A DNA stretch of 64,000 nucleotides from Tritonibacter horizontis (lineage in GTDB: Bacteria; Pseudomonadota; Alphaproteobacteria; Rhodobacterales; Rhodobacteraceae). Below, piece after piece: positions 37,254 through 61,717 of this stretch. The notes below the pieces were generated by a model that saw only the letters and a list, made by a program, of their open reading frames with translations, was not told where the DNA came from and ran no database searches. The translations under genes and the position numbers were made by a program. Each line of letters starts with the position of its first letter. The stretch's first letter is position 1. The stretch covers positions 1 to 64,000 of the forward strand of contig NZ_LPUY01000128.1 of NCBI RefSeq assembly GCF_001518015.1, in the 5' to 3' direction.

Positions 37254-38444
37254 CTAGCGCTTCATCATGAGCGCAAAGCTAAAGTAGATAGAAGCGATTA
37301 AACCCACGAAAGCCAATACTATGGTGACCGCAAGCGGTACCGAATAGGAACCTGTTTTGGTATATAGAAGCCCTCCTACCCAAGGAGCTATCAGCCCAGC
37401 GAGGCCATATGAGAAGATCATTTTACCATAGACCCTCCCAATCTGCGAGATGCCGTATTCACGCCCGATCAATACAGGTATCAGCGACGCCGAGCCACCA
37501 AAGCACAGTCCAACAAATACGGTCGCTACGCAAACGACCAAGAAGCTGTCCGAACGCATCATCAATAACGCAGCGACCGTAAGCAAGCAGACAAAAAACA
37601 ACGCAATTCTGCCTTGAACCCAATCGACAAACCTGCCACCAAAAATGGATCCTACTATATATCCTAAATTCAACAAGCCCGCGCCCAGTCCGAGAAGCCT
37701 ACTTGGAACGCCAATTTCTTCCAAAATACCGGATATATGCGAGATAGTTAACAGCCCGGCAAAGCAAATCGCGAAGAAACAGTAGGACATAATCGCAAAG
37801 CGAAGCGTAAAGACTTCAGAGCTAGTAGGCTCTTGAATTTCTTCCGTAGGCGTCAGAGAAGAACCATCAACTTTAGAAACAACAAAAACGCCGAGTAGAA
37901 GTATTCCGAAACCGATGACAAGAAATGATGTAGCTGGAGAACTGTGCAGAATCGCCTGTGCAAAAACGCTAGAAATAAGGATCCCAGACAAGGCAAAACA
38001 CGACACTATGACACCAATCGCTAGGGAACGATTTCGCTCTTTTACGAATTGAGCCATTTCAAGCGCGAACCCGTACCCCAAGCCTGAGCCGGTCCCAAAA
38101 GCCATGCCATAGCCAAGAATAAGCGACGTCAATGTTGGCCAAAAGCCAAACAGAACGTGCCCGCCACCAGCCAGTGAAAAACAAAGCAAAGCAGTGCCGC
38201 GTAAGGTCAATCTCGTTGATACTGCCATTTGTAGCATCATTCCCAGCATGAAACACGCCAGTGCCAATGACGGAGCCAAGCTTAACTCAGCCCGGCTCAG
38301 CCCGAGATCCCTTTCCATCGGTAACAGGAACAAGCTCCACGCATACATTACACCCATGCAGCTGTTAGTAAGACAGCCAATCAGCACTGGGGGAGAAAGC
38401 AGACCTACTCCCAGCGCGTCATTTCCGTCATCTCTGCCAATCAT
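37254..38444 (-). CDS. MFS transporter, oxalate/formate-antiporter-like
   Basis: A 396-residue MFS protein with about 12 helices (LIGCLTNSCMGVMYAWSLF at the start; FGTGSGLGYGFALEMAQFV in the middle; IGREYGISQIGRVYGKMIFS near the end). Its layout resembles OFA-type carboxylate carriers. It lies 3 bp behind the FAD-dehydrogenase gene and is thus the last gene of the hyuA-to-MFS operon. It may export formate or another product, or import the substrate. Its codons are clearly more A/T-rich than those of the ABC transporter genes beside it, so it may have joined the operon separately. Confidence 0.82.
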   Translation of the reverse strand: MIGRDDGNDALGVGLLSPPVLIGCLTNSCMGVMYAWSLFLLPMERDLGLSRAELSLAPSLALACFMLGMMLQMAVSTRLTLRGTALLCFSLAGGGHVLFGFWPTLTSLILGYGMAFGTGSGLGYGFALEMAQFVKERNRSLAIGVIVSCFALSGILISSVFAQAILHSSPATSFLVIGFGILLLGVFVVSKVDGSSLTPTEEIQEPTSSEVFTLRFAIMSYCFFAICFAGLLTISHISGILEEIGVPSRLLGLGAGLLNLGYIVGSIFGGRFVDWVQGRIALFFVCLLTVAALLMMRSDSFLVVCVATVFVGLCFGGSASLIPVLIGREYGISQIGRVYGKMIFSYGLAGLIAPWVGGLLYTKTGSYSVPLAVTIVLAFVGLIASIYFSFALMMKR

Positions 38445-38447
38445 TAT

Positions 38448-40892
38448 CTACACCTTGATCCTCTCGTTCTTGGGGTCCAAGAAAGGTGAGAGTGACGCAG
38501 TTGCTTTGTAACGTTCACAGGCGATCTCAATCTCGAATCCATCGGCATTGATGAAGTCGCGAGTGACACCGTCGGCGTTATAGATGTATCCCATGCCCAT
38601 CGATCGATCGAGCCTGTGCCCATATCCGCCAGAGGTAATAGATCCGATTATCCTACCTTCCTTGTAGATCGGCTCTTCGTGATAGAGCATCTTTCGACAT
38701 CCCTCGGGCAGTTGGAATTGTACAAGCCGCTTTGTAGGCACACCGGCGTCTCGCGCACGCAAGAGAGCATCGCGGCCGACAAATTCAGCTTTATTATAGT
38801 CCACGGCAAACGAGAGCCCCGCCTGGATCGGAGTGTCTTCTTCGCCAATGTCATGCCCCCAGTGCCGATAACCTTTTTCTACCCGAAGGCTGTTGAGCGC
38901 AAAGAACCCCGCATGGCTAAGGCCAAATTCCTGACCGGCCTCGACGATCTTGTCGAAGACATGCATCGCGAAATCCGCAGGGATATAGAGTTCCCACCCA
39001 AGTTCGCCAACAAAGGTCAGCCGACTCGCCCTGACGGTCGCATATCCGACGGCAATCTCCTGGCTTGTCCCGAACGGGAAGGCGGCATTCGACAGGTCGG
39101 CACCGGAAACCTTCTCAAGCAGCGCGCGGGATTTGGGCCCCATAATCGCTAGCATCGGTAGGCCGGGCGTGACATCGGTGACAACGACAGCCGCATCGCC
39201 GGGAATGTGGCGGCTCAACCACGACAGATCGCGTGTCTGGCTGGCGGCTATGGTGACGACTAGATAGGCTGTTTCTGAAAGCCGGGTGATCGTGACATCC
39301 GCCTCGATACCCCCGCGCGGGTTGAGCCACTGGGTGTAGACGACCTTGCCCATGGCAACATCAACATTTCCTGCTGACACGTTGTTGAGAATGCTGCAAG
39401 CGTCTCGGCCCTCGACCCGGAATTTGACATAGCAACTCTGGTCGAAAACGGTCACGGCTGATTGCGTGTCCAAACATTCAGCGCGCGCATCTTCGAACCA
39501 GCTTTGCGGGCCGAAGGAATAGCCGATCTCAGTCGAGCGGCCATCGCGCGCGAAAAAGCCCGGCCGCTCATAACCGGCAGCTTCGGTCATCGAGGCCCCG
39601 AGAGCGACAAGGCGGTCGTGAAACGGGCTTTGGCGCACATTGCGCGCGGTTTCATATTGCTGGTAAGGCCAATGCATCTTGTAGAGCAAGCCCAACGTTT
39701 CCTTGGTCCGGTCGAAGAGATAGCTCTTGTTCGACTGCCAGGAATGCATGCGGCGCACGTCGACATCGGCCAGTTCCATCGGCGGGTGACCGTCGTTGAT
39801 CCAATCCGCCAGCGCCTTGCCGACGCCACCAGACGACAGGATACCGACCGAGTTGAACCCGCAGGCGCAGAACAACCCCTCAACCTCGGGCGTCTCCCCC
39901 AGAAGGTAGCGGTCATCGGGCGTGAAGCTTTCGGGGCCGTTGAAGAACAGCTGGATACCCGCGTTGGCCAGCGCTGGCACGCGTTTGACGGCCATGTCGA
40001 GGATCGGTTCGAAATGATCGAAATCCTCGGGCAGGCTGTCGAAGCAGAAGTCCTCGGGGATGCCGTTATGCCCCCAGGGTTTCGCTTCGGGCTCGAAGCA
40101 TCCCAGCAGCAGCTTGCCAGCGTCTTCCTTGTAATAGGAACACTCGTCGGCGACGAACAGCACTGGTAGTTCGCGGGGCAGATCGGGCATCTGCTCGGTC
40201 ACGATGTAGAAATGCTCTGCCGCGTGGAGCGGCAGGGAGACGCCGCTTTGCGCCGCGAATTCCCGCGACCACATGCCGCCCGCGATGACGACGCGGTCGG
40301 CACGGATCTCGCCATCGGCGAGTTTCACGCCCCGCACCTTTCCGTTCTCGACGATCAGGCGCTCGACCAGAGTATTCTCGAAAATCTTGGCTCCGCGCAT
40401 ACGCGCGCCCTTGGCCATCGCCATGGTGACGTCAGCCGGGTTGACCTGCCCGTCGTTGGGCATCCAGATACCGCCGACAACATCTTCAACCTCGACAAGT
40501 GGCCAGCGCTCGCGGATCTCGCCCGCGGATATGACATCCGCTTCAAGACCGAAATTTCTGGCCATCGAAACGCCGCGTTTCAATTCTTCGAAACGTGCAT
40601 CATGCGTGGCAAGGCGCAAAGCGCCGTTTTGTTTGAAACCCGTCGCCTGCCCCGTTTCCGTTTCCAATTCGCGAAACAACTCACCCGTATACTTTGCAAG
40701 CTCTGTCATGTTACGCGTCGCACGGAGCTGCGTCACCAATCCGGCTGCATGCCAGGTGGTTCCGCTCGTCAGTTGCTTTCGCTCACACAAGACGACATCG
40801 GTAATCCCCAGCTTGGTAAGGTGATATGCGATGGAACAGCCCGCTACGCCGCCACCAACGATAACCACATCTGCTGTATTTGGAATGCTCAT
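38448..40892 (-). CDS. FAD-dependent N-methyl amino acid dehydrogenase (sarcosine/dimethylglycine dehydrogenase or MABO type)
   Basis: An 814-residue flavoprotein. The DAO/FAD domain has dinucleotide motif VVIVGGGVAGCSIAYHL at residues 9-25 and SGTTWHAAGL with H48, the position used for covalent FAD attachment in this family. After a linker domain (FAO_M) come the folate-binding GCV_T and GCV_T C-terminal domains (GFFALNSLRVEKGYRHWGHD, YNKAEFVGRDALLRA). Members remove N-methyl groups, passing electrons to ETF or oxygen and the methylene to tetrahydrofolate. ETF, FolD and PurU genes in the same island support dehydrogenase activity and C1 transfer. The exact substrate (sarcosine, dimethylglycine, N-methyl-4-aminobutyrate) is not readable; context favours the last. 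Confidence 0.88.
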   Translation of the reverse strand: MSIPNTADVVIVGGGVAGCSIAYHLTKLGITDVVLCERKQLTSGTTWHAAGLVTQLRATRNMTELAKYTGELFRELETETGQATGFKQNGALRLATHDARFEELKRGVSMARNFGLEADVISAGEIRERWPLVEVEDVVGGIWMPNDGQVNPADVTMAMAKGARMRGAKIFENTLVERLIVENGKVRGVKLADGEIRADRVVIAGGMWSREFAAQSGVSLPLHAAEHFYIVTEQMPDLPRELPVLFVADECSYYKEDAGKLLLGCFEPEAKPWGHNGIPEDFCFDSLPEDFDHFEPILDMAVKRVPALANAGIQLFFNGPESFTPDDRYLLGETPEVEGLFCACGFNSVGILSSGGVGKALADWINDGHPPMELADVDVRRMHSWQSNKSYLFDRTKETLGLLYKMHWPYQQYETARNVRQSPFHDRLVALGASMTEAAGYERPGFFARDGRSTEIGYSFGPQSWFEDARAECLDTQSAVTVFDQSCYVKFRVEGRDACSILNNVSAGNVDVAMGKVVYTQWLNPRGGIEADVTITRLSETAYLVVTIAASQTRDLSWLSRHIPGDAAVVVTDVTPGLPMLAIMGPKSRALLEKVSGADLSNAAFPFGTSQEIAVGYATVRASRLTFVGELGWELYIPADFAMHVFDKIVEAGQEFGLSHAGFFALNSLRVEKGYRHWGHDIGEEDTPIQAGLSFAVDYNKAEFVGRDALLRARDAGVPTKRLVQFQLPEGCRKMLYHEEPIYKEGRIIGSITSGGYGHRLDRSMGMGYIYNADGVTRDFINADGFEIEIACERYKATASLSPFLDPKNERIKV

Positions 40893-40910
40893 GACTGTAG
40901 CTCCTGTTCT

Positions 40911-41624
40911 TCAAGCACCTAGGTAGGTGTCAATTATTTTTTGATTTTCATGCATTTCCGCGGGTGCACCCGACCAGACGAAATGACCGCCATCCATCAG
41001 GTACAATCGATCCGCATGGCCAGCCACCCGTGCGATGTTCTCTTCGACCACGACAATCGTCATGCCTGTCGCACGCAGTTCATCGATTGCCTCGTAGATC
41101 TGGTCAATCACCACCGGCGCCAACCCAAGCGAGGGCTCATCCAGAACCAGAAGGCGGCAATCCGCCATCATCAGACCACGACCAATACCCAACATGCGGC
41201 GTTCACCTCCCGACAGGGAACTGGCGATCTGCTCCGCGCGCTGTTCGAGCTTGGGAAAGAGCGCGAAGACCTTGTCCAGTTGCGCCTGGGACCTTGCATC
41301 CGACCGGTTGGCATAGCCGCCGACCAGCAGGTTTTCGAGAATGGTCATGTTCTTGTAGACCAGATCGCCCTGCGGCACATGAGCCAGCCCCATCTGCGCG
41401 ATTTTCTCCGGCGCCAGCCCGAGGATGGATCGACCGTTCAGGGCGATGCTGCCCTGGGTCCTGGGCAACAGGCCCGATATCGCGCGCAGCAGCGTCGTCT
41501 TGCCATGACCGTTCGGGCCGACAATGCCGATCAGTTCGCCTTGCGCGACCGTCAGGTCGATCCCGTTCAGGATCGACCCCGTGCCGTAACCGGCGTGACA
41601 ATCCTTGACTTCAAGAAGTGGCAT
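40911..41624 (-). CDS. livF: Branched-chain-amino-acid-type ABC transporter ATPase LivF
   Basis: A 237-residue ABC ATPase starting MPLLEVKDCHAGYGTGSILN. Walker A is GPNGHGKTTLLRAISGL, signature SLSGGERRMLGIGRGLM, Walker B CRLLVLDEPSLGLAP. The real start is the ATG at 41624 with GGAGGAGG upstream, giving a 14-bp overlap with the end of livG. It pairs with LivG to drive uptake through LivH and LivM. The operon substrate is probably the amide or N-methyl compound degraded by the island, not a branched-chain amino acid. Confidence 0.93.
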   Translation of the reverse strand: MPLLEVKDCHAGYGTGSILNGIDLTVAQGELIGIVGPNGHGKTTLLRAISGLLPRTQGSIALNGRSILGLAPEKIAQMGLAHVPQGDLVYKNMTILENLLVGGYANRSDARSQAQLDKVFALFPKLEQRAEQIASSLSGGERRMLGIGRGLMMADCRLLVLDEPSLGLAPVVIDQIYEAIDELRATGMTIVVVEENIARVAGHADRLYLMDGGHFVWSGAPAEMHENQKIIDTYLGA

Positions 41625-42423
41625 TTCCGACCTCCTCCGCCTGTGCTCCCTTGCGGCTGTCGGCAGCGCCGGACACACCGAGGAAGACATCCACGACCTC
41701 AGGATTGTCGGCGAGACTGCCCGCCGCCCCTTCGTGCAGTTTCGCACCGTGGTGCAGGATCATGATCCGGTCCGCAAAGGCTGTCATGAAGCTCATCACG
41801 TGTTCGATCACGACAATGGTGGTCCCGTGAAAATCCCGAAGCTGTCTGAAGACCGCCGCGCAGGTTTCGATCTCGGCCGGGTTGAGCCCGCCGACCGGTT
41901 CGTCCAGCAGCAGAAGTTTGGGATGGCTCACGATGGCGCATCCGATCATCAACAGCTTCAGCTGCAAGACCGGCAAGGCACCCGCCATCACATCCGCATA
42001 GTCCGTCAAACCGGTCAGATCGAGCACCTCGGCCGCGCGGATCTCGGACCTGCGGTCATAGCTCAACCCGGGCACGAGCCGCTTTTCGCTGCCGAAATAG
42101 GCGCAGGTCTTCAGATTGTCGGCGACCGTTTGCGAGTTGAAGACGGCGTTTAGCTGGAAGGTGCGGCTAATGCCGAGATGGCAGATCGCCGAGGCGCCGA
42201 GCCCGGTGATATCGGCGCCCTCGAACAGGATCCTCCCGGCGGTCGGGGGGGTCACCCCGGACAAGAGATCAAACAGCGTGGTCTTCCCGGCGCCGTTCGG
42301 ACCGCCGATGCCGAGCACCTCGCCGCGGTCGACATGAAAGCTGAGATCGTTCGTCGCCTTCATGGCCCCGTAGGCCTTGGTCAGGCCGCGCACCTCAAGC
42401 AGATGTTGCGGTGAATGGGTCAC
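41611..42423 (-). CDS. livG: Branched-chain-amino-acid-type ABC transporter ATPase LivG
   Basis: A 270-residue ABC ATPase. Walker A GPNGAGKTTLFDLLSGV, Walker B PKLLLLDEPVGGLNP, and the LivG-type C-terminal ending (HEGAAGSLADNPEVVDVFLG). The usual LSGGQ signature is degenerate: the segment before Walker B reads ALPVLQLKLLMIGCAIVSHP, where most LivG proteins have LPYGxQR. That may mean weakened activity or a specialised subfamily. It is 3 bp behind livM and overlaps livF. Confidence 0.9.
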   Translation of the reverse strand: MTHSPQHLLEVRGLTKAYGAMKATNDLSFHVDRGEVLGIGGPNGAGKTTLFDLLSGVTPPTAGRILFEGADITGLGASAICHLGISRTFQLNAVFNSQTVADNLKTCAYFGSEKRLVPGLSYDRRSEIRAAEVLDLTGLTDYADVMAGALPVLQLKLLMIGCAIVSHPKLLLLDEPVGGLNPAEIETCAAVFRQLRDFHGTTIVVIEHVMSFMTAFADRIMILHHGAKLHEGAAGSLADNPEVVDVFLGVSGAADSRKGAQAEEVGNATS

Positions 42424-42426
42424 GTT

Positions 42427-43428
42427 TCAGCCCTCCTTCCTGGGGCTCAAGGCCCACTTCCTGAGTGACGCGAAACCGCCCATCAGGCCCTCTGGCAATG
42501 TGAGCAGTATGATCGAAAGAACGGCCGCATAGGCGGTGTTGCGCCATGCCGCGAGGTCGCGAAAGCCCTCGTCGATGAGCGCCAGCACGATCGTGCCGAC
42601 CACTGGGCCCCAAATGGTGCCGCGGCCGCCGACGACCATCATCGACAGCAGGAACAGCAGCGTGGGCAATTCGAGAACCTGCGGGCCAAACGTGCCGATC
42701 ACCCCGGCATAGACGCCTCCGCTCAAACCGGTGAACACTCCGGAGACGGCAAAGACGATGGCCTGATATTTCCGGATCTCGATACCGCGCGACGCGGCGC
42801 AGACCTCGTTGTCGCGCATCGCCTTAAAGGCCTGCCCATAGGGGCTGTAGACGACCATGATCGCGACCAGTATCGACAGCGCGAGCATGATGAGCGACAG
42901 GTAGAAATTGCCAAGCGGCGCACTGCTGTATCCAAGTAGCTCGCGAAACCCGAAATCGCCGAAACGCGACAGGCCGCGGGCGCCGCCGGAGAAGGAATAG
43001 CAAACCGATTGGGTCTGCCGGAAGCAGGCCACATCGGTCACCAGAAGCTGATAGACCGTCATGGCGATGGCGAGCGTGACCACGACGACATAGGCGCCGC
43101 GCAGCCGGAACGTGGCAAAGGCCATGACGAGGCTCATCAGCAGCCCCGCCAGAGCCGCCACCGGCAGGGTCCACCATAGGGACATGCCGAAATAGAGGCC
43201 CATGAGCGCGGTGGCATAGCCGCCCACCGCGAACAGAGCCATATGGCCGATCGACAGGATGCCGGCGACGCCGAAGACCAGGTTCCACTGCGACACGACG
43301 GCCGCCCACAGGATGAACAGGGTGATCTGCCCCAGAACGTAGCGGCTCAGCCCCAGCGCGGGCAAAAGGCTCAGGACGCCGACAAAGAGAAGAAGGATCA
43401 GAAGATCGCGGGATTTCATAGAACGCAT
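42427..43428 (-). CDS. livM: Branched-chain-amino-acid-type ABC permease LivM
   Basis: A 333-residue inner-membrane permease with about 9-10 helices and the LivM motif AAVVSQWNLVFGVAGILSIG, later AFKAMRDNEVCAASRGIEIR, which is the coupling loop to the ATPases. It starts 3 bp after livH ends. Together with LivH it forms the translocation pore. Confidence 0.93.
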   Translation of the reverse strand: MRSMKSRDLLILLLFVGVLSLLPALGLSRYVLGQITLFILWAAVVSQWNLVFGVAGILSIGHMALFAVGGYATALMGLYFGMSLWWTLPVAALAGLLMSLVMAFATFRLRGAYVVVVTLAIAMTVYQLLVTDVACFRQTQSVCYSFSGGARGLSRFGDFGFRELLGYSSAPLGNFYLSLIMLALSILVAIMVVYSPYGQAFKAMRDNEVCAASRGIEIRKYQAIVFAVSGVFTGLSGGVYAGVIGTFGPQVLELPTLLFLLSMMVVGGRGTIWGPVVGTIVLALIDEGFRDLAAWRNTAYAAVLSIILLTLPEGLMGGFASLRKWALSPRKEG

Positions 43429-43431
43429 GGG

Positions 43432-44310
43432 TCAGTTCCTCTCCAGTTCCTGGCGCCCGAAGAGACCGGTCGGTCGGTAGACCAGCACCAGCACCACGAC
43501 GAGAAGCGACACGGGAAACCCCCATTTCACACCGAGCGTGTACTGCACGGTGGTTTCCAGACCAGCGAGCGCGAATGACGCGGCCAGCGCGCCGGGAATG
43601 CTGCCGAGCCCGCCCAGGACGCAAACGATCAGCGCCTTGAGCAGCGGATCGAACCCGGCACCGGGATAGACGGTCGTCGAGCTTGTCAGCAGCACGCCGG
43701 AGGCGCCCGAGATGATCCCGGCGAGAACCATCACCTGAAAAATCACCGCCTGCACCGGCACGCCGTTCAGCCGAGCGGCGGTGATGTCCTGCGAGACGGC
43801 CCGGATAAGTCGGCCGAGATTGGTCTTGTGCACGACGAGTTGCAGCAGCAGCACCATGAGCGCACTGCAACAGACGACCAGCAGGGTCTGGTGCCCGATG
43901 GACAGCGCGCCGAGGACGAACCGCCCCTCGACCTGAAACGGTTGCCGCAGGATCTTTGCGCCGATCAGGTTGTTGATGAGATCGACCACGATGGTGCTGA
44001 ACGCCATGGTGAGGATGATGATCCGCAGATCGAAATTCGCCTTGCCGAAGATCCACCGGACCTGCGAGACGTAGAGCAGCAGTCCGCCCGCGGCGCCCGC
44101 GATCATGCCGCCCAGAAGCCCCGTCCACCAAGGCAGGCCCAGCCCGGTCACGACGGCCACCGAGCCATAGGCCCCGATGACGATCAGGGCGCCATGCGCG
44201 AGGTTCAGCATCGAAATGCTCCCCCATAGCAGCGCCAGCGACACCGAGCTCGCGGCATAGATCGCGCCCAACGCAATTGTGCTGGTTAAAATTCCAGTCA
44301 GTAGCTCCAT
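43432..44310 (-). CDS. livH: Branched-chain-amino-acid-type ABC permease LivH
   Basis: A 292-residue permease starting MELLTGILTSTIALGAIYAA, with the LivH box GSISMLNLAHGALIVIGAYG and loop GRLIRAVSQDITAARLNGVP. The start is the ATG at 44310 with GGAG upstream; the longer upstream frame is rejected because it overlaps the binding-protein gene. It follows the binding-protein gene by 80 bp. Confidence 0.92.
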   Translation of the reverse strand: MELLTGILTSTIALGAIYAASSVSLALLWGSISMLNLAHGALIVIGAYGSVAVVTGLGLPWWTGLLGGMIAGAAGGLLLYVSQVRWIFGKANFDLRIIILTMAFSTIVVDLINNLIGAKILRQPFQVEGRFVLGALSIGHQTLLVVCCSALMVLLLQLVVHKTNLGRLIRAVSQDITAARLNGVPVQAVIFQVMVLAGIISGASGVLLTSSTTVYPGAGFDPLLKALIVCVLGGLGSIPGALAASFALAGLETTVQYTLGVKWGFPVSLLVVVLVLVYRPTGLFGRQELERN

Positions 44311-44390
44311 CGCCTGGCTCCAGTTTTTCCTTTGTAGATTTGCACTCGGGGCTCCGGCAGAGCTCCGAGGCGCGACGTCATGCGTGTTGC

Positions 44391-45719
44391 TCAGGTGAAC
44401 CAGGGCGGGGTTTCGAACGCGACCTCGTTGTAGGGTTTGGGGAAGATCAGTTTCTTCGGCACGGCCGCGGCCGGGTCCTTGATCTGGTAGAGCAGATGCG
44501 GCATGGCCAGAGATGCATCCGGTGAGATGGTCGGATATGGCAGGGCTGCGTTGAACTCCTTGGCATAGCGCAAGGTGCCGAACGGTGCGCGGAACGAGAA
44601 GCGGCGCAGGTTGTCGGCGATCTTGCGGTTCTGCTCGTAGTCGCCCGGCTCCCCGGTTCCGCCGGCCAGAGCGGCCGAAATCGCGTAGTGATACATCTCG
44701 GAATAGGTCGATGCACCCGGGTCGGCTTCGGCGGTCTCCCCGAACCTGGCCCAATAGGCGTCGCGGAACGCATTGCCGATCTCGTCGGGCAGAATGCCGA
44801 TGACCGATGAAGACATGACACCCCGGGCGGCCTCGCCCGCGATCTCCGAGAAGGCTTTGAGCAGCGGCCCATACTGCATGTAGACAAGGCTGTTGGTGGG
44901 GTTCTCGGCAAACTGGATCTGGAATTGCGCCAGGTCCGCAGGGAAGAAATGGGTGTTCGCGATCACGGCAGGCTGTTCGGCGCGCACCTTGTTGAGGACG
45001 GCGCCCCATTCGGTGGTCGGAACGGGAACGATCTCTTCAAACGAGACTTCGAAACCGTATTGCGGCGCGGTTTCCCGGATCGCGTTGGAGATCACCGTGG
45101 AATAGGGAAGCGAGCCCGTGACGAGCGCGATCTTGTTGTTGTCGGGCTTCCAGAGCCCCTGGTCGCGTAGCGATGCCAGCATGACCGGAAGGCCGACGCC
45201 GTAGTAATATTCCGCGGGATCCGCCATGAAAATACCGGTGTAGCGCTCGGGATCGCTTTGGAAGGCTTCATGGTGTCCGATGGACGTGTTGTAGTGAATA
45301 TAGATGATCCCTGCATCGGCGATCGGATCATACTCGGCCTGATTGGCGCCCACATTGTAGCCATTGATGATTGCGTGAGACGCGTAGCGATCAATCAAAA
45401 GCCGCGCAGCCGCGCTGACTTCTTCTGCGGTCTGGTTCTTACTGTCGAGCGTTGTCGGCTCCAGCATCTTGCCGAGGATCCCGCCGGCGGCGTTGATCTC
45501 CTCACACGCCATTTCCAAACCGTTCTTGTGTTCGATGCCATCAACCGCCAGCGGGCCGGTAAGCGATGCCATCTGTCCGATCGGAATGGTTCCCGATTGC
45601 TGTGCTTTGGCCTCGTTGACTGAGGCCAGAAGCCCGGCCCCGAATGCGGTTCCCGCACCCGTTGTCAGGAATCTGCGCCGTGTGCTGACAACAGTCGGTG
45701 AAGTGAGTTTCTTTTCCAT
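44391..45719 (-). CDS. Periplasmic substrate-binding protein of the Liv/urea-amide type
   Basis: A 442-residue binding protein with a Tat signal (STRRRFLTTGAGTAFGAG, twin arginines near residue 14) and a likely cleavage after AKA near 39. The mature part has the Peripla_BP_5 fold (IPIGQMASLTGPLAVDGIEH, LLIDRYASHAIINGYNVGAN, YIHYNTSIGHHEAFQSDPER) as in urea and short-amide binders. It should deliver the substrate of this island to LivHMGF. Tat export suggests folding before secretion. An inverted repeat (45801-45827) separates it from hyuB. Confidence 0.9.
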   Translation of the reverse strand: MEKKLTSPTVVSTRRRFLTTGAGTAFGAGLLASVNEAKAQQSGTIPIGQMASLTGPLAVDGIEHKNGLEMACEEINAAGGILGKMLEPTTLDSKNQTAEEVSAAARLLIDRYASHAIINGYNVGANQAEYDPIADAGIIYIHYNTSIGHHEAFQSDPERYTGIFMADPAEYYYGVGLPVMLASLRDQGLWKPDNNKIALVTGSLPYSTVISNAIRETAPQYGFEVSFEEIVPVPTTEWGAVLNKVRAEQPAVIANTHFFPADLAQFQIQFAENPTNSLVYMQYGPLLKAFSEIAGEAARGVMSSSVIGILPDEIGNAFRDAYWARFGETAEADPGASTYSEMYHYAISAALAGGTGEPGDYEQNRKIADNLRRFSFRAPFGTLRYAKEFNAALPYPTISPDASLAMPHLLYQIKDPAAAVPKKLIFPKPYNEVAFETPPWFT

Positions 45720-49830: not shown

Positions 49831-49839
49831 CTTGAGCGG
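49831..49839 (+). repeat. IS256 target-site duplication, left
   Basis: CTTGAGCGG, repeated exactly at 51239-51247; 9 bp, within the 8-9 bp expected for IS256. Confidence 0.85.
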
Positions 49840-51238: not shown

Positions 51239-51247
51239 CTTGAGCGG
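51239..51247 (+). repeat. IS256 target-site duplication, right
   Basis: CTTGAGCGG, second copy of 49831-49839. Confidence 0.85.
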
Positions 51248-54252: not shown

Positions 54253-55145
54253 ACGCCAAAGTCATCGACGGCAAGGCATTTGCCGCGACTGTCCGCGCCC
54301 GCGTGGCCGAACACGTGGCGGCAAATGCAGCCCACGGCCAGCCCGGACTGGCCGTCGTTCTGGTCGGCGACGATCCTGCCAGCGATGTATATGTCCGCTC
54401 GAAGGGTCGGATGACGCGCGAGGTCGGCATGGCCTCGGTTAAGCACCGGCTTTCAGCCGAGACATCGGAAGCGGACTTGCTGAAGCTGATCGACGACCTG
54501 AACAATGATGACAGCATCCACGGTATTCTGGTGCAGTTGCCGCTGCCGGGGCACCTGAACGAGGACCTGGTGATCAACTCGATCGACCCGGCCAAGGATG
54601 TTGACGGGTTCCACACTTCGAACGTCGGACTGCTGGGGACAGGACAGAAAAGCATGGTGCCCTGCACCCCACTCGGGTGTCTGCTGATGTTGAAGGATCA
54701 TCACGGCAGCCTGTCTGGCCTAAACGCCGTCGTGATCGGACGATCCAACATCGTCGGCAAACCGATGGCCCAAATGCTGCTGAAAGAGAGCTGCACGGTC
54801 ACGGTGGCACATTCCCGCACCCGGAACATCGCGGAGGTTGTAAAGCGAGCAGAAATCGTGGTGGCCGCCGTCGGTCGCCCCGAGATGGTGACAGGCGACT
54901 GGATCAAGCCGGGGGCGACGGTGATTGATGTGGGCATCAATCGCATCAATGAAACTGTAAAGGGCGGCGGCAAGACCAGCCTGGTCGGCGATTGCCATTA
55001 TGACAGCTGCGCCGAGGTCGCAGGCGCCATCACACCCGTTCCTGGTGGGGTGGGGCCGATGACGATCGCATGCCTGCTTCTGAACACGCTGAATGCCTTC
55101 TGTGACCAGAAGGGGTTGCCCAGACCAAGCAAGCTCGCGGTCTGA
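54249..55145 (+). CDS. folD: Bifunctional methylene-THF dehydrogenase / methenyl-THF cyclohydrolase
   Basis: A 298-residue FolD that converts 5,10-methylene-THF to 10-formyl-THF with NADP. Catalytic region [14 protein letters not shown] (Tyr and Lys), active-site [26 protein letters not shown], cofactor loop [15 protein letters not shown] and [18 protein letters not shown]. The position between etfA and purU suggests it handles methylene-THF released by the N-demethylating flavoenzyme, a second copy to the housekeeping folD. Confidence 0.95.
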
Positions 55146-55176
55146 GCGCTTTGACAGACAGGAAAGAACCAAACTC

Positions 55177-56058
55177 ATGACTTATGTTCTCACCGTTCAC
55201 TGCACCTCGAAGCGGGGGATCGTGGCCGCCGTGTCCGGTTTCCTCGCCGAGCAGGGATGCAATATCACTGACGCGTCACAATTCGACGATGCCGAAACCG
55301 GAAGCTTCTTTGCCCGGATCAGTTTTGTCCCGGAAACCGGCACCAGCCTAGAAACACTGCGCGAAGGGTTTGGCCCGATCGCGCAGAACTTCGGCATGGA
55401 ATGGGGAATTCACGATACGGCAGATCGAATGAAGGTCGTGATCATGGTCTCGAACTTCGGACATTGCCTGAACGACCTGCTCTATCGCTGGCGGATCGGG
55501 GCGCTGCCCATCGATATCGTCGGGGTGATCTCAAACCACATGACCTATCAGAAGCTGGTAGTGAACCACGATCTGCCGTTTCACCACATCAAAGTCACAA
55601 AAGAAAACAAGCCCGAGGCAGAGGCGCGGCTCTTGCAAGTCGTCGAAGACTCCGGTGCCGAATTAGTTGTTCTGGCAAGGTATATGCAGATCCTGTCCGA
55701 CAGCGTGTGTCAGAAAATGTCCGGTCGGATTATCAATATCCACCATTCGTTCCTTCCTAGCTTCAAGGGGGCCAATCCCTACAAGCAGGCTTTTGAGCGC
55801 GGTGTTAAACTCATCGGGGCGACATCGCACTATGTGACTGCCGACCTCGACGAAGGACCGATCATCGAGCAAGACACGACGCGAGTAACACATGCTCAAT
55901 CGCCCGAGGACTACGTCTCGTTGGGACGAGATGTCGAAAGCCAGGTGCTTGCTCGCGCAATCCACGCACACATTCACCGCCGCGTATTTCTGAACGGCGA
56001 AAAAACAGTGGTTTTTCCCGCCTCGCCTGGAACTTATGCCAGCGAAAGAATGGGTTAA
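55177..56058 (+). CDS. purU: Formyltetrahydrofolate deformylase
   Basis: A 293-residue PurU: an N-terminal ACT domain (VLTVHCTSKRGIVAAVSGFL, residues 4-90) and a C-terminal formyl-transferase fold with the catalytic segments RIINIHHSFLPSFKGANPYK and HYVTADLDEGPIIEQD (His and Asp). It hydrolyses 10-formyl-THF to formate and free THF. With FolD it regenerates THF for the demethylase, the same trio of enzymes as the nicotine plasmid pAO1. The ATG at 55177 follows GGAAAG. Confidence 0.95.
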   Translation: MTYVLTVHCTSKRGIVAAVSGFLAEQGCNITDASQFDDAETGSFFARISFVPETGTSLETLREGFGPIAQNFGMEWGIHDTADRMKVVIMVSNFGHCLNDLLYRWRIGALPIDIVGVISNHMTYQKLVVNHDLPFHHIKVTKENKPEAEARLLQVVEDSGAELVVLARYMQILSDSVCQKMSGRIINIHHSFLPSFKGANPYKQAFERGVKLIGATSHYVTADLDEGPIIEQDTTRVTHAQSPEDYVSLGRDVESQVLARAIHAHIHRRVFLNGEKTVVFPASPGTYASERMG

Positions 56059-56168
56059 AGGCCGATTGAGCACATCTACTTTTCTTCTACAACCTCCGAA
56101 GCTTCCGAATCGCAAACGCTTAATAGCGCAGAAAAACGGTAGCTCTTTGTCTGAAAAGGTCATCAAGA

Positions 56169-57446
56169 ATGCGTAATTCTGAAATCTCCACCCGTCGCGA
56201 TGCCGCCATCTCTCGGGGTGTTGGCATGCAGACGCAGGTCTATGTCGAACGCGCCTCCGGGGCCGAGGTCTGGGACGTCGAGGGCAAGCGCTATATCGAC
56301 TTTGCCGCCGGGATCGCCGTGGTGAACACCGGCCATTGCCACCCCAAGGTGATGGAGGCCGTGCGCCGTCAAACCGAAGCCTTCACCCACACCTGCCATC
56401 AGGTGCTGCCCTATGAGAATTACATCCGTCTGGCCGAACGGCTGAACGACAAGGTGCCGGGCGACTTTGACAAGAAGACCGTCTTTGTCACCACCGGGGC
56501 CGAGGCCGTTGAAAACGCCATCAAGGTTGCGCGTGCTGCCACGGGTCGCAACGCCATCATCGCCTTTGGCGGCGGCTTCCACGGCCGGACCTTCATGGGG
56601 ATGAGCCTGACCGGCAAGGTCGCACCCTACAAGAAGGGGTTTGGCGCGATGATGCCCGACGTCTTCCACGTGCCCTTCCCGGTAGACCTGCATGGCATCT
56701 CGACCAAGGATGCGCTGGCGGGGATCGAAAAGCTGTTCAAGGCCGATCTGGATCCCGACCGCGTGGCGGCGATCATTCTGGAACCCGTGCAGGGCGAAGG
56801 CGGCTTCTATCCTGCCCCCGCCGATCTGATGCGCGGGCTGCGCAAGTTGTGTGACGCGCACGGCATCCTGCTGATTGCGGATGAGGTTCAGACCGGCTTC
56901 GCCCGGACCGGCACGCTCTTTGCGATGGAGGGTTATGACGTCCCCGCCGATATCACCACCTTGGCCAAGGGTCTGGCCGGGGGTCTGCCGCTGGCCGCGC
57001 TGACCGGCCGGGCCGAGGTGATGGACGCCGCCGCGCCCGGCGGTCTGGGCGGCACCTATGGCGGCAACCCTCTCGGGATCGCCGCGGCCCATGCGGTGCT
57101 GGATGTGATCGAGGAAGAAGACCTGTGCAACCGCGCCAACGAGCTGGGATCGCGCCTGAAACAGCGGCTGAATGCGATCCGGTCGCGGGTGCCGGAAATG
57201 GTCGACGTGCGCGGTCCCGGCTTCATGATCGCGGCCGAGTTCAACACCGCCGATGGCAAGGCCCCGAACCCCGAGATGACCAATGCCATCCGGGCCGAGG
57301 CCCTGTCCCGCGGGCTCGTCCTGCTGACCTGCGGCGTCTATGGCAACGTGATCCGTTTCCTCGCCCCGCTGACCATCCCCGACGATATCTTCGCCGAAGC
57401 TATGGACATCCTCGAGGCGTCGATCGACGCCGTGAAAGGCGCTTGA
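56169..57446 (+). CDS. gabT: 4-aminobutyrate aminotransferase
   Basis: A 425-residue class III PLP aminotransferase of the GabT type. The glycine-rich PLP region is TGAEAVENAIKVARAATGR, the aspartate segment LLIADEVQTGFARTG, and the Schiff-base lysine lies in TTLAKGLAGGLPLAAL near residue 267. It converts GABA and 2-oxoglutarate to succinate semialdehyde and glutamate. One base separates it from gabD. Codon style and G/C content match gabD closely, so the pair probably travelled together. Confidence 0.93.
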   Translation: MRNSEISTRRDAAISRGVGMQTQVYVERASGAEVWDVEGKRYIDFAAGIAVVNTGHCHPKVMEAVRRQTEAFTHTCHQVLPYENYIRLAERLNDKVPGDFDKKTVFVTTGAEAVENAIKVARAATGRNAIIAFGGGFHGRTFMGMSLTGKVAPYKKGFGAMMPDVFHVPFPVDLHGISTKDALAGIEKLFKADLDPDRVAAIILEPVQGEGGFYPAPADLMRGLRKLCDAHGILLIADEVQTGFARTGTLFAMEGYDVPADITTLAKGLAGGLPLAALTGRAEVMDAAAPGGLGGTYGGNPLGIAAAHAVLDVIEEEDLCNRANELGSRLKQRLNAIRSRVPEMVDVRGPGFMIAAEFNTADGKAPNPEMTNAIRAEALSRGLVLLTCGVYGNVIRFLAPLTIPDDIFAEAMDILEASIDAVKGA

Positions 57447-57447
57447 C

Positions 57448-58917
57448 ATGAAAGACCTGATGACCTTGTCCCTGAAGGACCCGAGCCTTCTGGAAACCCG
57501 CGCCTATGTGAACGGCACCTGGGTCGAAGACGAGGCGCGCTTTGATGTCTTCGACCCCGCCACCGGTCAGCTTGTTGCTTCGGTCGCGGATCTGGACGTG
57601 GCCGCAACGGCGCGGGCGGTGGATGCCGCCCATGCCGCAGGCCACAACTGGGCGGCGATGACCGGCAAGGAACGCGCCGCGATCCTGCGCCGCTGGCACG
57701 ATCTGATGATCGAAAACGCCGATGATCTGGCCACGATCCTGACCGCCGAGATGGGCAAGCCCTGGGCCGAGGCGCGGGGCGAGATCCTTTATGGGGCGTC
57801 TTTCATCGAATGGTTCGCGGAAGAGGCCAAGCGCATCTATGGCGATGTCATTCCCGGCCATCAGCGCGACAAGCGGATCATGGTGCTGAAACAGCCCGTG
57901 GGCGTCGTCGGCTCGATCACGCCCTGGAACTTCCCCAATGCGATGATTGCGCGCAAGGTCGGTCCGGCCCTGGCGGCTGGCTGTACCTTTGTCGCCCGTC
58001 CGGCCGAACTGACGCCTTTGTCGGCGCTGGCCATGGCGGTGCTGGGCGAACGCGCGGGCATTCCGGCGGGGGTGTTCAACGTAATCCCGTCGACCGATAC
58101 CTCGGGCGTGGGGAAGGAACTCTGCTCCAACCCCAAGGTGCGGAAGATCACCTTCACCGGGTCGACCCGCGTTGGCAAGATCCTGATGGAACAGGCCGCG
58201 GGCACCATCAAGAAGATGTCGCTTGAACTGGGCGGCAATGCGCCCTTCATCGTCTTTGACGACGCCGATCTGGACGCCGCCGTCGAAGGTGCGATGATCG
58301 CCAAGTTCCGCAACAACGGCCAGACCTGCGTCTGCGCCAATCGGATCTATGTGCAATCCGGTATCTACGACACCTTTGCCGAAAAGCTGAAAGAGGCCGT
58401 GCGCCAATTACATGTCGGCAACGGCTTTGACGAGGGTGTGACCACCGGTCCGCTGATCAGTGAAGCCGCGGTGACCAAGGTTGAGGCGCATATCGCTGAC
58501 GCTTTGGACAAAGGGGCCGAGGTGACGACCGGCGGCAATCGGACCAACACCGGCGGCACTTTCTTTGCGCCGACGGTCCTTAAGGGTGTGACCCGCGACA
58601 TGCTGGTCTGCAACGAGGAAACCTTTGGCCCGCTTGCGGCGCTGGTGCGCTTCGACACCGAAGCGGAAGTCATCGATATGGCCAATGACAGCGAATTCGG
58701 CCTGGCATCCTACTTCTACGCCAACGATCTGTCCCGCGTCTGGCGCGTGGCCGAGGCGCTGGAGTCGGGCATGGTCGGCGTGAACACCGGGCTGATCTCG
58801 ACCGAGGTGGCCCCCTTTGGCGGCATCAAGCAGTCCGGCCTGGGCCGCGAAGGGTCCAAATACGGGATCGAGGACTTCCTTGAACTGAAAAACGTCTGTT
58901 TGGGCGGCATCTCCTAA
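57448..58917 (+). CDS. gabD: Succinate-semialdehyde dehydrogenase (NADP-type)
   Basis: A 489-residue aldehyde dehydrogenase. The cofactor region is GVVGSITPWNFPNAMIARKV and ITFTGSTRVGKILMEQ, the general base glutamate lies in SLELGGNAPFIVFDDADLD and the nucleophile cysteine in NNGQTCVCANRIYVQSG; the C-terminus (APFGGIKQSGLGREGSKYG) is typical for GabD. It oxidises succinate semialdehyde to succinate. Paired with gabT it forms a complete GABA shunt. Confidence 0.94.
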   Translation: MKDLMTLSLKDPSLLETRAYVNGTWVEDEARFDVFDPATGQLVASVADLDVAATARAVDAAHAAGHNWAAMTGKERAAILRRWHDLMIENADDLATILTAEMGKPWAEARGEILYGASFIEWFAEEAKRIYGDVIPGHQRDKRIMVLKQPVGVVGSITPWNFPNAMIARKVGPALAAGCTFVARPAELTPLSALAMAVLGERAGIPAGVFNVIPSTDTSGVGKELCSNPKVRKITFTGSTRVGKILMEQAAGTIKKMSLELGGNAPFIVFDDADLDAAVEGAMIAKFRNNGQTCVCANRIYVQSGIYDTFAEKLKEAVRQLHVGNGFDEGVTTGPLISEAAVTKVEAHIADALDKGAEVTTGGNRTNTGGTFFAPTVLKGVTRDMLVCNEETFGPLAALVRFDTEAEVIDMANDSEFGLASYFYANDLSRVWRVAEALESGMVGVNTGLISTEVAPFGGIKQSGLGREGSKYGIEDFLELKNVCLGGIS

Positions 58918-58930
58918 TCCGCCCAATCTC

Positions 58931-58960
58931 TGGGACGGTGGTCCTCCTGCCATCGTCCCA
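58931..58960. terminator. Hairpin after gabD
   Basis: TGGGACGGTGG (58931-58941) and CCATCGTCCCA (58950-58960) form 11 pairs including one G-U, with an 8-nt loop. No T-run follows, so it may be a stability or partial terminator hairpin between gabD and the dehydrogenase gene. Confidence 0.5.
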
Positions 58961-58991
58961 AACCCCTTCCCCATTCCCGGAAACTCAAGAC

Positions 58992-60401
58992 ATGTCCTCC
59001 GACCATTCTTTTTTAAATGACGTGAACCAAATGTTCTCGGACGCCGCACAGCTGATGTCCATGGAGGAGGGTCTGGCGAATAAAATCAACGTCTGCAACG
59101 CCTCTTATATTACCCGGCTCGGCGTGCGGCTGCGCGGGAAGATGTACACATTCGAGGGGTGGCGTTCGGTGCATTCGAACCACCCGAGTCCCGCCAAAGG
59201 CGGCATTCGCTATGCGCCCTATGCCGATCTCGATGAGGTCGAAGCGCTGGCCGCTTTGATGACCTACAAATGCGCGCTGATGGACATCCCCTTTGGCGGC
59301 TCAAAGGGTGCGCTGAAAATCGACCCCTCGGAATGGGAACCCCATGAGCTTGAGCGGATCACCCGCCGCTTTGCGCAAGAGCTCGCACGCCACGACTTTC
59401 TTAGTCCCAGCCAAAACGTCCCCGCGCCCGATGTCGGCACCAATGAGACAACGATGATCTGGATCGCCGACGAATACCGCCGGATGAAGTCCGGCGATAT
59501 CAACGCGCTCGCCTGCGTCACCGGAAAGCCGCTGGCCATGGGTGGGATTGAGGGGCGGATCGAAGCAACGGGACGTGGGGTGCAATATGGCATTCAGGAA
59601 TTTTTCCGCCATCCCCAGGACCTGGCCCGCACGGGGCTTCCCGACGGGCTTTCAGGTCGCACAGTCGTGATCCAAGGCCTTGGCAACGTGGGGTATCACG
59701 CGGCCAAATTCCTCAGTCTTGAGGATGGCTGCCGCATCATCGCGGTGATCGAACGCGATGGCGTCGTCCGCAATCCCGACGGCCTCGATATCGACGCTCT
59801 CAAGGCGCATGTCACGGCCACGGGGGGCGTCGCGGGCTTTGCGGGCGGGACACATGACGCAGACGGCAAAGCTGCACTGACAGACGCCTGCGATATCCTG
59901 ATCCCCGCCGCGCTCGAAAGCGTCATTACCAAAGACAATGCGCCTCATGTAAAGGCGCGCCTGATTGTCGAGGCGGCCAATGGCCCGATCACTTATGACG
60001 CCAACACAATCCTGCGCGATCGAGGCATCGTGGTTATCCCCGATCTCTTCGCCAACGCAGGCGGTGTCACGGTAAGCTATTTCGAGTGGGTCAAGAACCT
60101 GACCCACATCCCCTTTGGCCTTATGGAACGGCGTCGTGACGAACGCGGTCACAGGGTGCTGACCCAATCGATCGAACATATGACAGGCCGCAGCTTCCCT
60201 ACTGAAACGGCCCAAGAACTTATGAGCGGCACGCGCGAAATTGACCTTGTTCGGTCTGGGCTCGACGACAAGATCCGGTCTGCCTACGCCGAGATGTCGA
60301 TGCTTTGGAACAGCAATCCTGAAATCCCCGACCTGCGCACTGCGGCCTACGTCATTGCCGTAAGGCGGCTTGCAGAGATCTACAAGGCACTTGGAATATG
60401 A
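58992..60401 (+). CDS. Glu/Leu/Phe/Val-type dehydrogenase (probable glutamate dehydrogenase)
   Basis: A 469-residue ELFV dehydrogenase. The catalytic block contains HPSPAKGGIRY, FGGSKGALKIDPSEWEPHEL with the lysine, and PAPDVGTNETTMIWIADEYR; the NAD domain starts VVIQGLGNVGYHAAKFL. The usual GGxKGG reads GGSKGA. It probably converts glutamate made by GabT back to 2-oxoglutarate and ammonium, closing the amino cycle. Its G/C content is lower than that of gabTD. The start ATG at 58992 has only a weak ribosome site. Leucine/valine dehydrogenase activity is possible. Confidence 0.88.
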   Translation: MSSDHSFLNDVNQMFSDAAQLMSMEEGLANKINVCNASYITRLGVRLRGKMYTFEGWRSVHSNHPSPAKGGIRYAPYADLDEVEALAALMTYKCALMDIPFGGSKGALKIDPSEWEPHELERITRRFAQELARHDFLSPSQNVPAPDVGTNETTMIWIADEYRRMKSGDINALACVTGKPLAMGGIEGRIEATGRGVQYGIQEFFRHPQDLARTGLPDGLSGRTVVIQGLGNVGYHAAKFLSLEDGCRIIAVIERDGVVRNPDGLDIDALKAHVTATGGVAGFAGGTHDADGKAALTDACDILIPAALESVITKDNAPHVKARLIVEAANGPITYDANTILRDRGIVVIPDLFANAGGVTVSYFEWVKNLTHIPFGLMERRRDERGHRVLTQSIEHMTGRSFPTETAQELMSGTREIDLVRSGLDDKIRSAYAEMSMLWNSNPEIPDLRTAAYVIAVRRLAEIYKALGI

Positions 60402-61717
60402 CACTTAGAAAGACGAACCCGCCACGGATCGTCATCGTCGGTGCAGGGGCTGCGGGACTAAACCTGGCCACCAGGCTAAGCCGATCGCTCGGCAGGAAAA
60501 AGGCCGCCGAAATCACGCTTGTCGACGAAAACCTGACCCACATGTGGAAACCCTCGCTGCATGAATATTCTGTCGGAACAAAGGGAAGCGACGAGGAAAT
60601 CAGCCTGCTCGAGCATTCGCATCGAAATCGCTACAATTTCCGCCTTGGTCGGTTCGCGGGCATCGATCGGGACCGGTGCATGGTACAGCTTGATCCTGTC
60701 AACGATCTGCACAACCGACCTCTCGCGCCGCTCAGATCCCTGCCCTACGATATCTTGGTGCTGGCCATCGGCAGCCGCTCGAACGACTTCGGGACACCAG
60801 GGATCAAAGAACATTGCCTGATGCTCGACACGCCAACTCAGGCAAAACGGTTACAATCTGAGCTACTGAACCTGTTCCTGCGGCTCGAAACAGGTGCCCT
60901 GGGCAAAGACCACAGTACGATCAATATAAATATCGTCGGCGGCGGGGCAACCGGTGTGGAGCTGGCCGCCGAGCTGCGCGAAGCAACCGAGCAGCTTGCG
61001 CATAACGGTATAGACCGCCTGAGAGATCCCGGAATTGTTCACATTCGCATCATCGAAGCGGCCCCAAGAGTTCTTGCTGCCCTTCCGGAAAAGGTTTCGA
61101 AGAAAGTCACACGACATCTTGGTGAACTTTCGGTTGCGGTTTCGGTCAATGCGCGCGTCCAACATGTGACCTCGCAAGAAGTTCACCTGGCTGACGGAAC
61201 GATTCTTCCATCAACCCTGACAATCTGGGCAGCCGGCATCAAGGCACCCGAGGTCGTCGGCACGCTTTCGACGCTTGAAACCGGTAGCCTTGGCCGGCTG
61301 AAGGTACGCCCTACCCTGCAATCGACACATGACGAAAAGATTTATGTGATTGGCGATTGTGCCGAATGCTTCTGGCCCGAGAAGGACGGATTTCTGCCCC
61401 CCCGTGCACAGGTCGCAACCCAGCAAGCCGAGTTTCTTGAGGCGCAACTCACCGCGCATCTTGCCGGTAAGCCCCTGCGGAATTTCCACTATATTGATCG
61501 CGGCTCATTGGTGGCGATCAGTCAGGAAGGGGCGGTAGCGGCTCTGATGGGAAAGGCAATCGGAACCGTTACCTTCGAAGGATGGCTCGCACGGCGCGCC
61601 TATAATTACCTGCACTTTCAGCACTTGAGTTCTGTGCAGGGCTGGCTTCGCGCGGTCGTTCTTACTGCCTTGGGCAAGGCGATGAGACGCGTCAGACCTC
61701 GGCTCAAATTGCACTGA
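60398..61717 (+). CDS. Type II NADH dehydrogenase-like FAD oxidoreductase
   Basis: A 439-residue two-dinucleotide-fold oxidoreductase. FAD motif IVIVGAGAAGLNLATRL at residues 9-25, NADH motif NIVGGGATGVELAAELREAT near 187-205, and the FAD-contact YVIGDCAECFWPEKDGFLPP followed by RAQVATQQAEF. A basic amphipathic C-terminus (GKAMRRVRPRLKLH) may attach it to the membrane. NDH-2 passes electrons from NADH to quinone without proton pumping, so it could reoxidise NADH from the glutamate dehydrogenase. Its start overlaps the previous stop in ATGA, so the two are coupled. Confidence 0.88.
   Translation: MTLRKTNPPRIVIVGAGAAGLNLATRLSRSLGRKKAAEITLVDENLTHMWKPSLHEYSVGTKGSDEEISLLEHSHRNRYNFRLGRFAGIDRDRCMVQLDPVNDLHNRPLAPLRSLPYDILVLAIGSRSNDFGTPGIKEHCLMLDTPTQAKRLQSELLNLFLRLETGALGKDHSTININIVGGGATGVELAAELREATEQLAHNGIDRLRDPGIVHIRIIEAAPRVLAALPEKVSKKVTRHLGELSVAVSVNARVQHVTSQEVHLADGTILPSTLTIWAAGIKAPEVVGTLSTLETGSLGRLKVRPTLQSTHDEKIYVIGDCAECFWPEKDGFLPPRAQVATQQAEFLEAQLTAHLAGKPLRNFHYIDRGSLVAISQEGAVAALMGKAIGTVTFEGWLARRAYNYLHFQHLSSVQGWLRAVVLTALGKAMRRVRPRLKLH

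Follow-up and report, generated by a model that had tools for sequence, protein, structure and literature searches.

A plasmid-borne gene cluster of Tritonibacter horizontis predicted to degrade an N-methylated five-membered lactam by ring opening and demethylation

The nmpABCDEF cluster of Alicycliphilus BQ1 reportedly serves the degradation of N-methyl-2-pyrrolidone (NMP). A cluster of the same name has this function in Paracoccus ZQW-1 where, according to the excerpted text, deletion of nmpB abolishes NMP degradation (PMC12866759). In nicotine catabolism, N-methyl-4-aminobutyrate (N-methyl-GABA) is demethylated to 4-aminobutyrate (GABA) by MABO, together with FolD and PurU (excerpts of PMC6122326 and PMC6214936). 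In the pAO1 system, FolD, PurU and MABO are present in nicotine-grown cells (PMC6214936, excerpt) and nicotine catabolism also has a parallel deaminating enzyme, Mao (PMC6122326, excerpt), so that a choice between demethylation and deamination exists within one organism. Here we describe a gene cluster at positions 37254-61717 of a 64,000-nucleotide stretch of T. horizontis DNA (contig NZ_LPUY01000128.1, positions 1 to 64,000; hereafter the window). The pathway predicted for this cluster would resemble the NMP pathway (nmpABCDEF) in its upper part and, in its lower part, the MABO branch of nicotine catabolism.

We propose that this plasmid cluster serves the catabolism of an N-methylated five-membered lactam, with NMP or a natural relative as the likeliest candidate, a reading that its gene content and relatives make probable. 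A pathway of this type is well supported; the substrate is one that we infer, and NMP is our best guess. The amidohydrolase HyuAB would open the ring at the expense of ATP, with bicarbonate also taking part by analogy with the caprolactamase CapAB, to give N-methyl-GABA. The flavin adenine dinucleotide (FAD) domain of a two-domain FAD/GcvT dehydrogenase would then oxidise the N-methyl group and the GcvT domain would hand it to tetrahydrofolate (THF), leaving GABA. Electrons would pass to an electron-transferring flavoprotein (ETF; EtfB, 52565-53323, and EtfA, 53326-54252) and on to ETF-quinone oxidoreductase, one of which is encoded elsewhere in the genome. FolD (54249-55145) and the formyl-THF deformylase PurU (55177-56058), both of which score over their curated cut-offs, are predicted to convert methylene-THF to formate and free THF, and GabT, a 4-aminobutyrate transaminase (56169-57446; 824 bits, cut-off 724), and GabD, a succinate-semialdehyde dehydrogenase (SSADH; 57448-58917), to convert GABA to succinate, all four being well-matched families. 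A glutamate dehydrogenase (GDH; 59031-60401), for which the best-scoring solved chains are mitochondrial GDH, would return glutamate to 2-oxoglutarate and ammonia, and an NDH-2-like NADH:quinone oxidoreductase (60398-61717) would reoxidise NADH. The genes from etfB onwards all lie on the plus strand. This order of reactions had been put forward in an earlier note made from the DNA alone, and it fits the comparative evidence: the grouping of HyuAB with NmpAB, the alternation of two partner enzymes, the recurrence of EtfBA, FolD and PurU beside relatives of the FAD/GcvT enzyme and, at some loci, GABA genes.

HyuB (45835-47607, minus strand; Hydantoinase_B) and HyuA (47619-49640, minus strand; Hydantoinase_A) are NmpB-like and NmpA-like, being 66% and 62% identical, respectively, to a pair from Paracoccus pantotrophus (locus L014) whose neighbours are an FAD oxidase, a small cupin, a PucR regulator and an SSADH, the last 60% identical to GabD and in the position of NmpF. 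This locus was assigned to nmpABCDEF by gene order and annotation, and its match to the ZQW-1 set is one of order and kind; we take NmpD to be the small cupin and NmpE the PucR regulator. In a HyuA tree (rows identical to or contained in another were dropped, as were matches with fewer than 560 aligned residues, and the final tree also omits four long rows) the window protein joins the NmpA-type proteins in a single long-branched clade (support 100/100), apart from the other hydantoinase-family rows used, and HyuB groups with NmpB, far from other hydantoinase-family proteins. The HyuA clade is rare, with matches at E ≤ 1e-200 in 2 of 385 genomes of the class and 1 of 398 of the phylum (the window genome is counted in both). 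In a survey of the family, 11 of 394 genomes match HyuA at E ≤ 1e-150 and, the window genome aside, all matches are at most 42% identical. The caprolactamase residues that matter include, in the excerpted account, D11 and D295 of CapA and D41, H99, D102 and H124 of CapB (PMC8453981). In alignments the equivalents of CapA D11, D295 and D302 are conserved in the window HyuA, and all four CapB metal ligands (D41, H99, D102 and H124) in HyuB. At the P. pantotrophus locus (L014, 1-11862), the nmp-type cluster adjoins two genes, annotated as hpbA for an N-methyl-L-proline demethylase and as hpbD for a hydroxyproline betaine epimerase, which may point to a natural N-methylated substrate.

The genes found beside HyuAB of this clade differ among loci. 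Eighteen HyuA-clade loci were examined, with the window and plasmid pP24_b, which carries the same cluster, counted once; they come from five of the nine plasmid records with HyuA at least 60% identical (all except H45-H48), from a further search that gave 14 loci (one of these, L033, matched by chance, and another, L032, is the other copy carried by the L021 genome), and from the survey of class genomes. Eleven carry NmpC, a deaminating FAD amino-acid oxidase (L014, L015, L018, L022-L027, L030 and L031) and six an FAD/GcvT enzyme (window/L012, L013, L020, L021 with a broken gene, L029 with L060, and L157), while L028 shows neither partner, NmpA alone being found there; none of the 18 carries both. 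NmpC is absent from the cluster, and its nearest match in the window genome is 32% identical, which is not close. Because two unrelated amine-oxidising partners serve one clade of HyuAB, this alternation suggests that HyuAB releases an N-methyl amine and hence that the ring it opens is that of the lactam itself and not of an oxidised imide. One Rhodospirillales metagenome-assembled genome (MAG) is represented by two contigs (L029 and L060), and the HyuA pieces on these are 98.7% identical across 445 bp. On L060, an FAD/GcvT gene (72% identical to that of the window, truncated where the contig stops) is divergent from HyuA, and a MarR gene separates the two. In an alphaproteobacterial genome (G447, locus L157), HyuA, HyuB and FAD/GcvT stand in a row on one strand, and this FAD/GcvT enzyme, 50% identical to that of the window, falls outside the clade of the latter in a tree made by a quick method. 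Since it comes from another branch, either HyuAB acquired such a partner on two occasions or one FAD/GcvT gene has been swapped for another. As a control, 11 loci of distant HyuA from the same family (38-42% identity; 9-20 kb each) were inspected and none holds a two-domain FAD/GcvT homologue; at L149, a 25% match covers the FAD part alone.

In the HyuA tree, the 11 NmpC-type rows and L028 form a 12-row crown (100/99) with the six FAD/GcvT-type rows outside it and the forks at the base open; in the HyuB tree, the crown is not recovered, the NmpC-type rows are not one clade, and the G447 protein groups with the window type (85/98). The crown is nested, and the lineages outside it (four Rhodobacteraceae rows, the Rhodospirillales MAG and G447) all have an FAD/GcvT gene. 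On this basis we raise, tentatively and as something we would sooner doubt than adopt, the idea that HyuAB with FAD/GcvT may be the older form, serving a natural aquatic N-methyl-gamma-lactam, and that the NmpC solvent clusters may be a later offshoot in which deamination replaced demethylation. The nmp-type cluster of Agrobacterium tumefaciens 14-818c (L018, 4698-10009) adjoins glutamate-synthase-like and type III glutamine-synthetase-like genes and purU, neighbours that are suggestive of methylamine assimilation after deamination. A general association of nmp-type loci with methylamine-assimilation genes was considered and rejected, as the first two of these kinds of gene were found at none of the 18 other loci searched.

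The FAD/GcvT enzyme, here named MabD (38448-40892, minus strand; domains DAO, FAO_M, GCV_T and GCV_T_C), has the architecture of dimethylglycine dehydrogenase. It was compared with relatives in trees that leave out matches of fewer than 560 aligned residues as well as rows identical to, or contained in, another, the quick-method tree also omitting nine long-branch or distant rows and one MABO duplicate; six of the 16 records at 60-80% identity were opened (all except H4-H12 and H17). His48 is present in 80 of 80 rows, His227 and Tyr253 in 83 of 83, and position 532 is Asp in 68 of 80 rows, including the window enzyme and MABO, and Glu in 12 (MABO is counted twice throughout). From the roles of their counterparts in dimethylglycine oxidase and dehydrogenase, we take His48 to be the position of covalent FAD attachment, Asp532 to belong to the folate site, and His227 and Tyr253 to the active site. 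The window enzyme falls in a clade of 10 rows (SH-aLRT 100), together with those from Sphingobium, Sinorhizobium, Agrobacterium, Shinella, Mesorhizobium and the Rhodospirillales MAG. In this clade position 246 is Phe in nine rows, including that of the window, and Ile in one, whereas it is Arg in 69 of the 73 rows outside the clade (83 rows in all), among them MABO, dimethylglycine dehydrogenase, dimethylglycine oxidase and the G447 enzyme; the four exceptions are 30-44% identical to the window enzyme. The change at this position, an Arg seven residues before the active-site Tyr in most relatives and a criterion noticed here rather than an established one, hints at an altered substrate. It would not be required of an N-methyl-GABA enzyme, since MABO and the G447 enzyme keep the Arg. 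MABO itself was considered as an orthologue of the window enzyme and rejected, being 42% identical and placed on a long branch outside the 10-row clade, and it thus supports the proposed chemistry by analogy only. The pAO1 plasmid also carries an annotated Pycsar-type effector and two nucleotide cyclases (L069, 20372-22372).

The relatives of MabD bring their own neighbours. Genes for EtfBA, FolD and PurU lie next to FAD/GcvT genes on several plasmids of Alphaproteobacteria, and the full set of etfBA, folD and purU is present at 7 of the 10 loci of the clade (L012, L013, L016, L017, L121, L122 and L123), two of which (L017 and L123) have an ETF-quinone oxidoreductase gene in addition. GABA genes at 45% identity or more are present at four of the 10 (L012, L013 and L016, and L121 with SSADH only), which amounts to three lineages because L012 and L013 are close kin. 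In the Sphingobium plasmid pTomTYG64a (L016, 14986-25857) the FAD/GcvT gene stands with etfBA, purU, folD, gabT and gabD, and HyuAB was not found in the 32 kb seen; in Sinorhizobium meliloti MABNR56, a close relative stands with etfBA, purU, folD and SSADH. At 20 more distant loci (56-66% identity, taken from the 28 non-window FAD/GcvT matches), none of etfBA, folD, purU, gabT and gabD was found at 45% identity or more, some of these stretches being cut by contig ends. We consider ETF the likely electron acceptor of the FAD/GcvT enzyme. In Mesorhizobium sp. B2-1-8 (L019, 28423-32321), a distant HyuAB pair (38% and 32%) and an NCS1 transporter lie about 11 kb from an FAD/GcvT gene of the clade.

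The cluster as a whole recurs in other replicons. Plasmid pP24_b of Phaeobacter inhibens P24 (L012) carries it over 24.8 kb with 100.0% DNA identity, and the Pseudosulfitobacter plasmid pSMR1-6 (L013) has an identical gene order with 82-100% protein identity, a conservation that points beyond chance. In Roseovarius sp. MMSF_3281 (L020), the regulator, HyuA, HyuB and FAD/GcvT genes stand in a row with a remnant of the MFS (major facilitator superfamily) gene. A Rhodobacteraceae MAG (L021) keeps gabD, gabT, the regulator, HyuAB and the Liv genes, with the FAD/GcvT and LivG frames broken. The same MAG (G427) holds two copies of the cluster (L021/L064 and L032/L063) and both frames are broken in each, through either decay or assembly error.

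Several observations weigh against the proposed pathway. At three loci with etfBA, purU and folD (L017, L122 and L123) no GABA genes were seen, and L019 in Mesorhizobium shows none of etfBA, folD, purU or the GABA genes. The genome encodes two more EtfA proteins, 87% and 79% identical to that of the plasmid, so that a dedicated pairing is at most presumed. Fourteen places in the genome match the FAD/GcvT protein or one of its domains, so other enzymes of the host could act on N-methyl amines. MABO, which comes from an Arthrobacter plasmid of the pAO1 kind, shows no specific grouping with the window enzyme. In the 22 kb seen of the Rhodobacteraceae MAG locus, where the FAD/GcvT gene is broken, etfBA, folD and purU were not found, and no plus-strand arm was seen in the 13.6 kb of the Roseovarius locus, the contig of which starts 358 bases before the regulator. 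Finally, the excerpted text of PMC12866759 proposes that NMP in Paracoccus ZQW-1 is first oxidised to N-methylsuccinimide and then opened by HyuAB, implying a different HyuAB product. For the window we regard this as very unlikely, since the chemistry of the family would have imide opening yield an N-methyl amide and not a secondary amine, in which case an NmpC or FAD/GcvT partner would be unexpected and GabT would be without a substrate.

Other substrates and divisions of labour can be envisaged. HyuAB might act on another N-methylated cyclic amide such as N-methyl-5-oxoproline, giving N-methylglutamate that the FAD/GcvT enzyme would convert to glutamate and GDH to 2-oxoglutarate, with GabT and GabD forming a side route. 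The HyuAB superfamily does, by name, include 5-oxoprolinases and N-methylhydantoinases, and GDH sits in the cluster; against this, HyuAB groups with NmpAB, SSADH occurs in or beside several nmp-type loci, and GabT and GabD adjoin the FAD/GcvT module in Sphingobium too, and we judge the idea unlikely. It is less plausible still that HyuAB opens unmethylated 2-pyrrolidone or a like lactam to GABA while the FAD/GcvT enzyme, ETF, FolD and PurU serve a separate methylated amine, for example dimethylglycine, or N-methyl-GABA of other origin. Such independence could be read from Sphingobium, Agrobacterium LN-1 and Paracoccus seriniphilus, where FAD/GcvT, etfBA, folD and purU occur without HyuAB in the stretches seen, but the clade HyuAB adjoins an FAD/GcvT gene in three further lineages, in one of them a gene from another branch, and FAD/GcvT alternates with NmpC as its partner. 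We would give hardly any credence to ordinary dimethylglycine or sarcosine catabolism beside an unrelated lactamase. The FAD/GcvT family is that of dimethylglycine dehydrogenase, and in P. seriniphilus two FAD/GcvT genes adjoining an ABC importer go with an ETF/FolD/PurU set much like that of the window; the window cluster, however, has a single FAD/GcvT gene (others lie elsewhere in the genome), all 10 clade rows have Phe or Ile where 69 of 73 other rows have Arg246, GABA genes are present, and the linkage to HyuAB recurs in other lineages.

The cluster has two arms. On the minus strand are the MFS, FAD/GcvT, Liv transporter, HyuB and HyuA genes and on the plus strand the series from etfBA to NDH-2. 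The earlier note's gene list is borne out, with every named gene an intact reading frame where it had been placed; it had included neither the PuuR-like regulator (helix-turn-helix and cupin domains; 51633-52283, minus strand) nor the IS256-family insertion (49840-51238, plus strand; transposase 49985-51181) that lie between the arms. The transport genes, all on the minus strand, are an MFS carrier distantly like L-lactate and oxalate-formate transporters and under the curated cut-offs (37254-38444), the Liv-type ABC ATPases LivF (40911-41624) and LivG (41611-42423), the permeases LivM (42427-43428) and LivH (43432-44310), and a substrate-binding protein (44391-45719; Peripla_BP_6). Neighbouring genes of the arms are separated by 15 gaps, of which 11 do not exceed 31 bases and the other four measure 80-115, a spacing consistent with operons. 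The insertion is bounded by a 9-bp target duplication, CTTGAGCGG, at 49831-49839 and 51239-51247. It splits the region between the regulator and hyuA in the window and in pP24_b, is absent from pSMR1-6 and Roseovarius, and could alter hyuA expression.

The host contig (C128) is 98,043 bp of a 4.86 Mb draft genome. That it is a plasmid, as the earlier note had it, is supported by the presence on it of RepC (8362-9642) and a RepA/ParA-type ATPase (10902-12113), both detected by domain search, and by the identical cluster on pP24_b; in addition, the first 25 kb of the window match Roseobacteraceae repABC plasmids over up to 57% of their length. Near these replication genes are defence-like genes (172-5260 and 13502-14674) for an AAA ATPase (PADLOC PDC-S06, 553 bits), an Mrr-nuclease/nSTAND3 protein (PDC-S73, 446 bits) and an AAA_14/DUF4143 protein (PDC-S01, 311 bits). 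A strawberry-notch-type helicase of 1465 residues (17350-21747) occurs on several Roseobacter plasmids as well.

If the proposal is correct, the cluster would give a major industrial solvent a second degradation route, one that recovers the methyl group, with formate and THF-bound one-carbon units as products and not methylamine. Enzymes that open unactivated gamma-lactams are scarce; OplAB has mere trace activity on gamma-butyrolactam in the excerpted account (PMC11033972). One mechanism proposed for CapAB draws a lactim tautomer (PMC8453981, excerpt). An N-methyl lactam, having no N-H, cannot form one, and an active N-methyl lactamase would therefore discriminate between the proposed CapAB mechanisms. 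The alternation of NmpC and FAD/GcvT likewise bears on the mechanistic question of whether the HyuAB substrate is lactam or imide. The earlier note had suggested a distinct, ETF-dependent demethylation route, and this stands in part: the parts of the pathway are known and the demethylation chemistry is not new, MABO with FolD and PurU accomplishing it in nicotine catabolism, but the pairing of lactam opening with demethylation, the link to ETF and the NmpC/FAD-GcvT alternation were not found among the matches listed from open PMC full texts, a body of literature outside which most subscription papers lie, with no search aimed at the primary MABO papers. Gene-level work on NMP besides PMC12866759 proved scarce among these matches.

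Among described systems, the Paracoccus seriniphilus p449297 operon has FAD/GcvT, EtfBA, FolD and PurU in common with the window but differs in that its FAD/GcvT genes number two, its ABC importer is of a different type and no GABA or lactam genes were seen in its 22 kb; it is probably for dimethylglycine or sarcosine. Dimethylglycine dehydrogenase (PDB 5l46, 4p9s) and oxidase (1pj5) share with MabD the FAD and folate domains and, by the roles that we assume for them, the FAD-site His, the active-site His and Tyr and the folate-site Asp, whereas the window enzyme has Phe for the Arg seven residues before the active-site Tyr and another gene neighbourhood. Caprolactamase shares its ATP-site Asp residues and all four metal ligands with HyuAB (PMC8453981, excerpt); membership of that family was rejected, as the NCBIfam equivalog scores are 499.9 and 313.2 bits against a cut-off of 1000. 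The MABO-FolD-PurU operon likewise joins an FAD/GcvT enzyme that keeps His48 and Asp532 to FolD and PurU. Unlike the window system, MABO is an H2O2-forming oxidase with no adjoining ETF gene in the stretch seen, and its N-methyl-GABA derives from nicotine and not from a lactam; the ETF genes of the window suggest that oxygen is not the electron acceptor there. Compared with nmpABCDEF, the window cluster lacks the NmpC oxidase, the PucR regulator and the small cupin; for the last two, no match or annotation appeared in the pP24_b and pSMR1-6 clusters, to which the comparison was confined. The two systems have in common an amidohydrolase of the same clade (62% and 66% identity to the like-ordered P. 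pantotrophus pair) and an SSADH (60%), and to these the window adds the FAD/GcvT enzyme, ETF, FolD, PurU, GabT, GDH, NDH-2, a Liv importer and a PuuR-type regulator.

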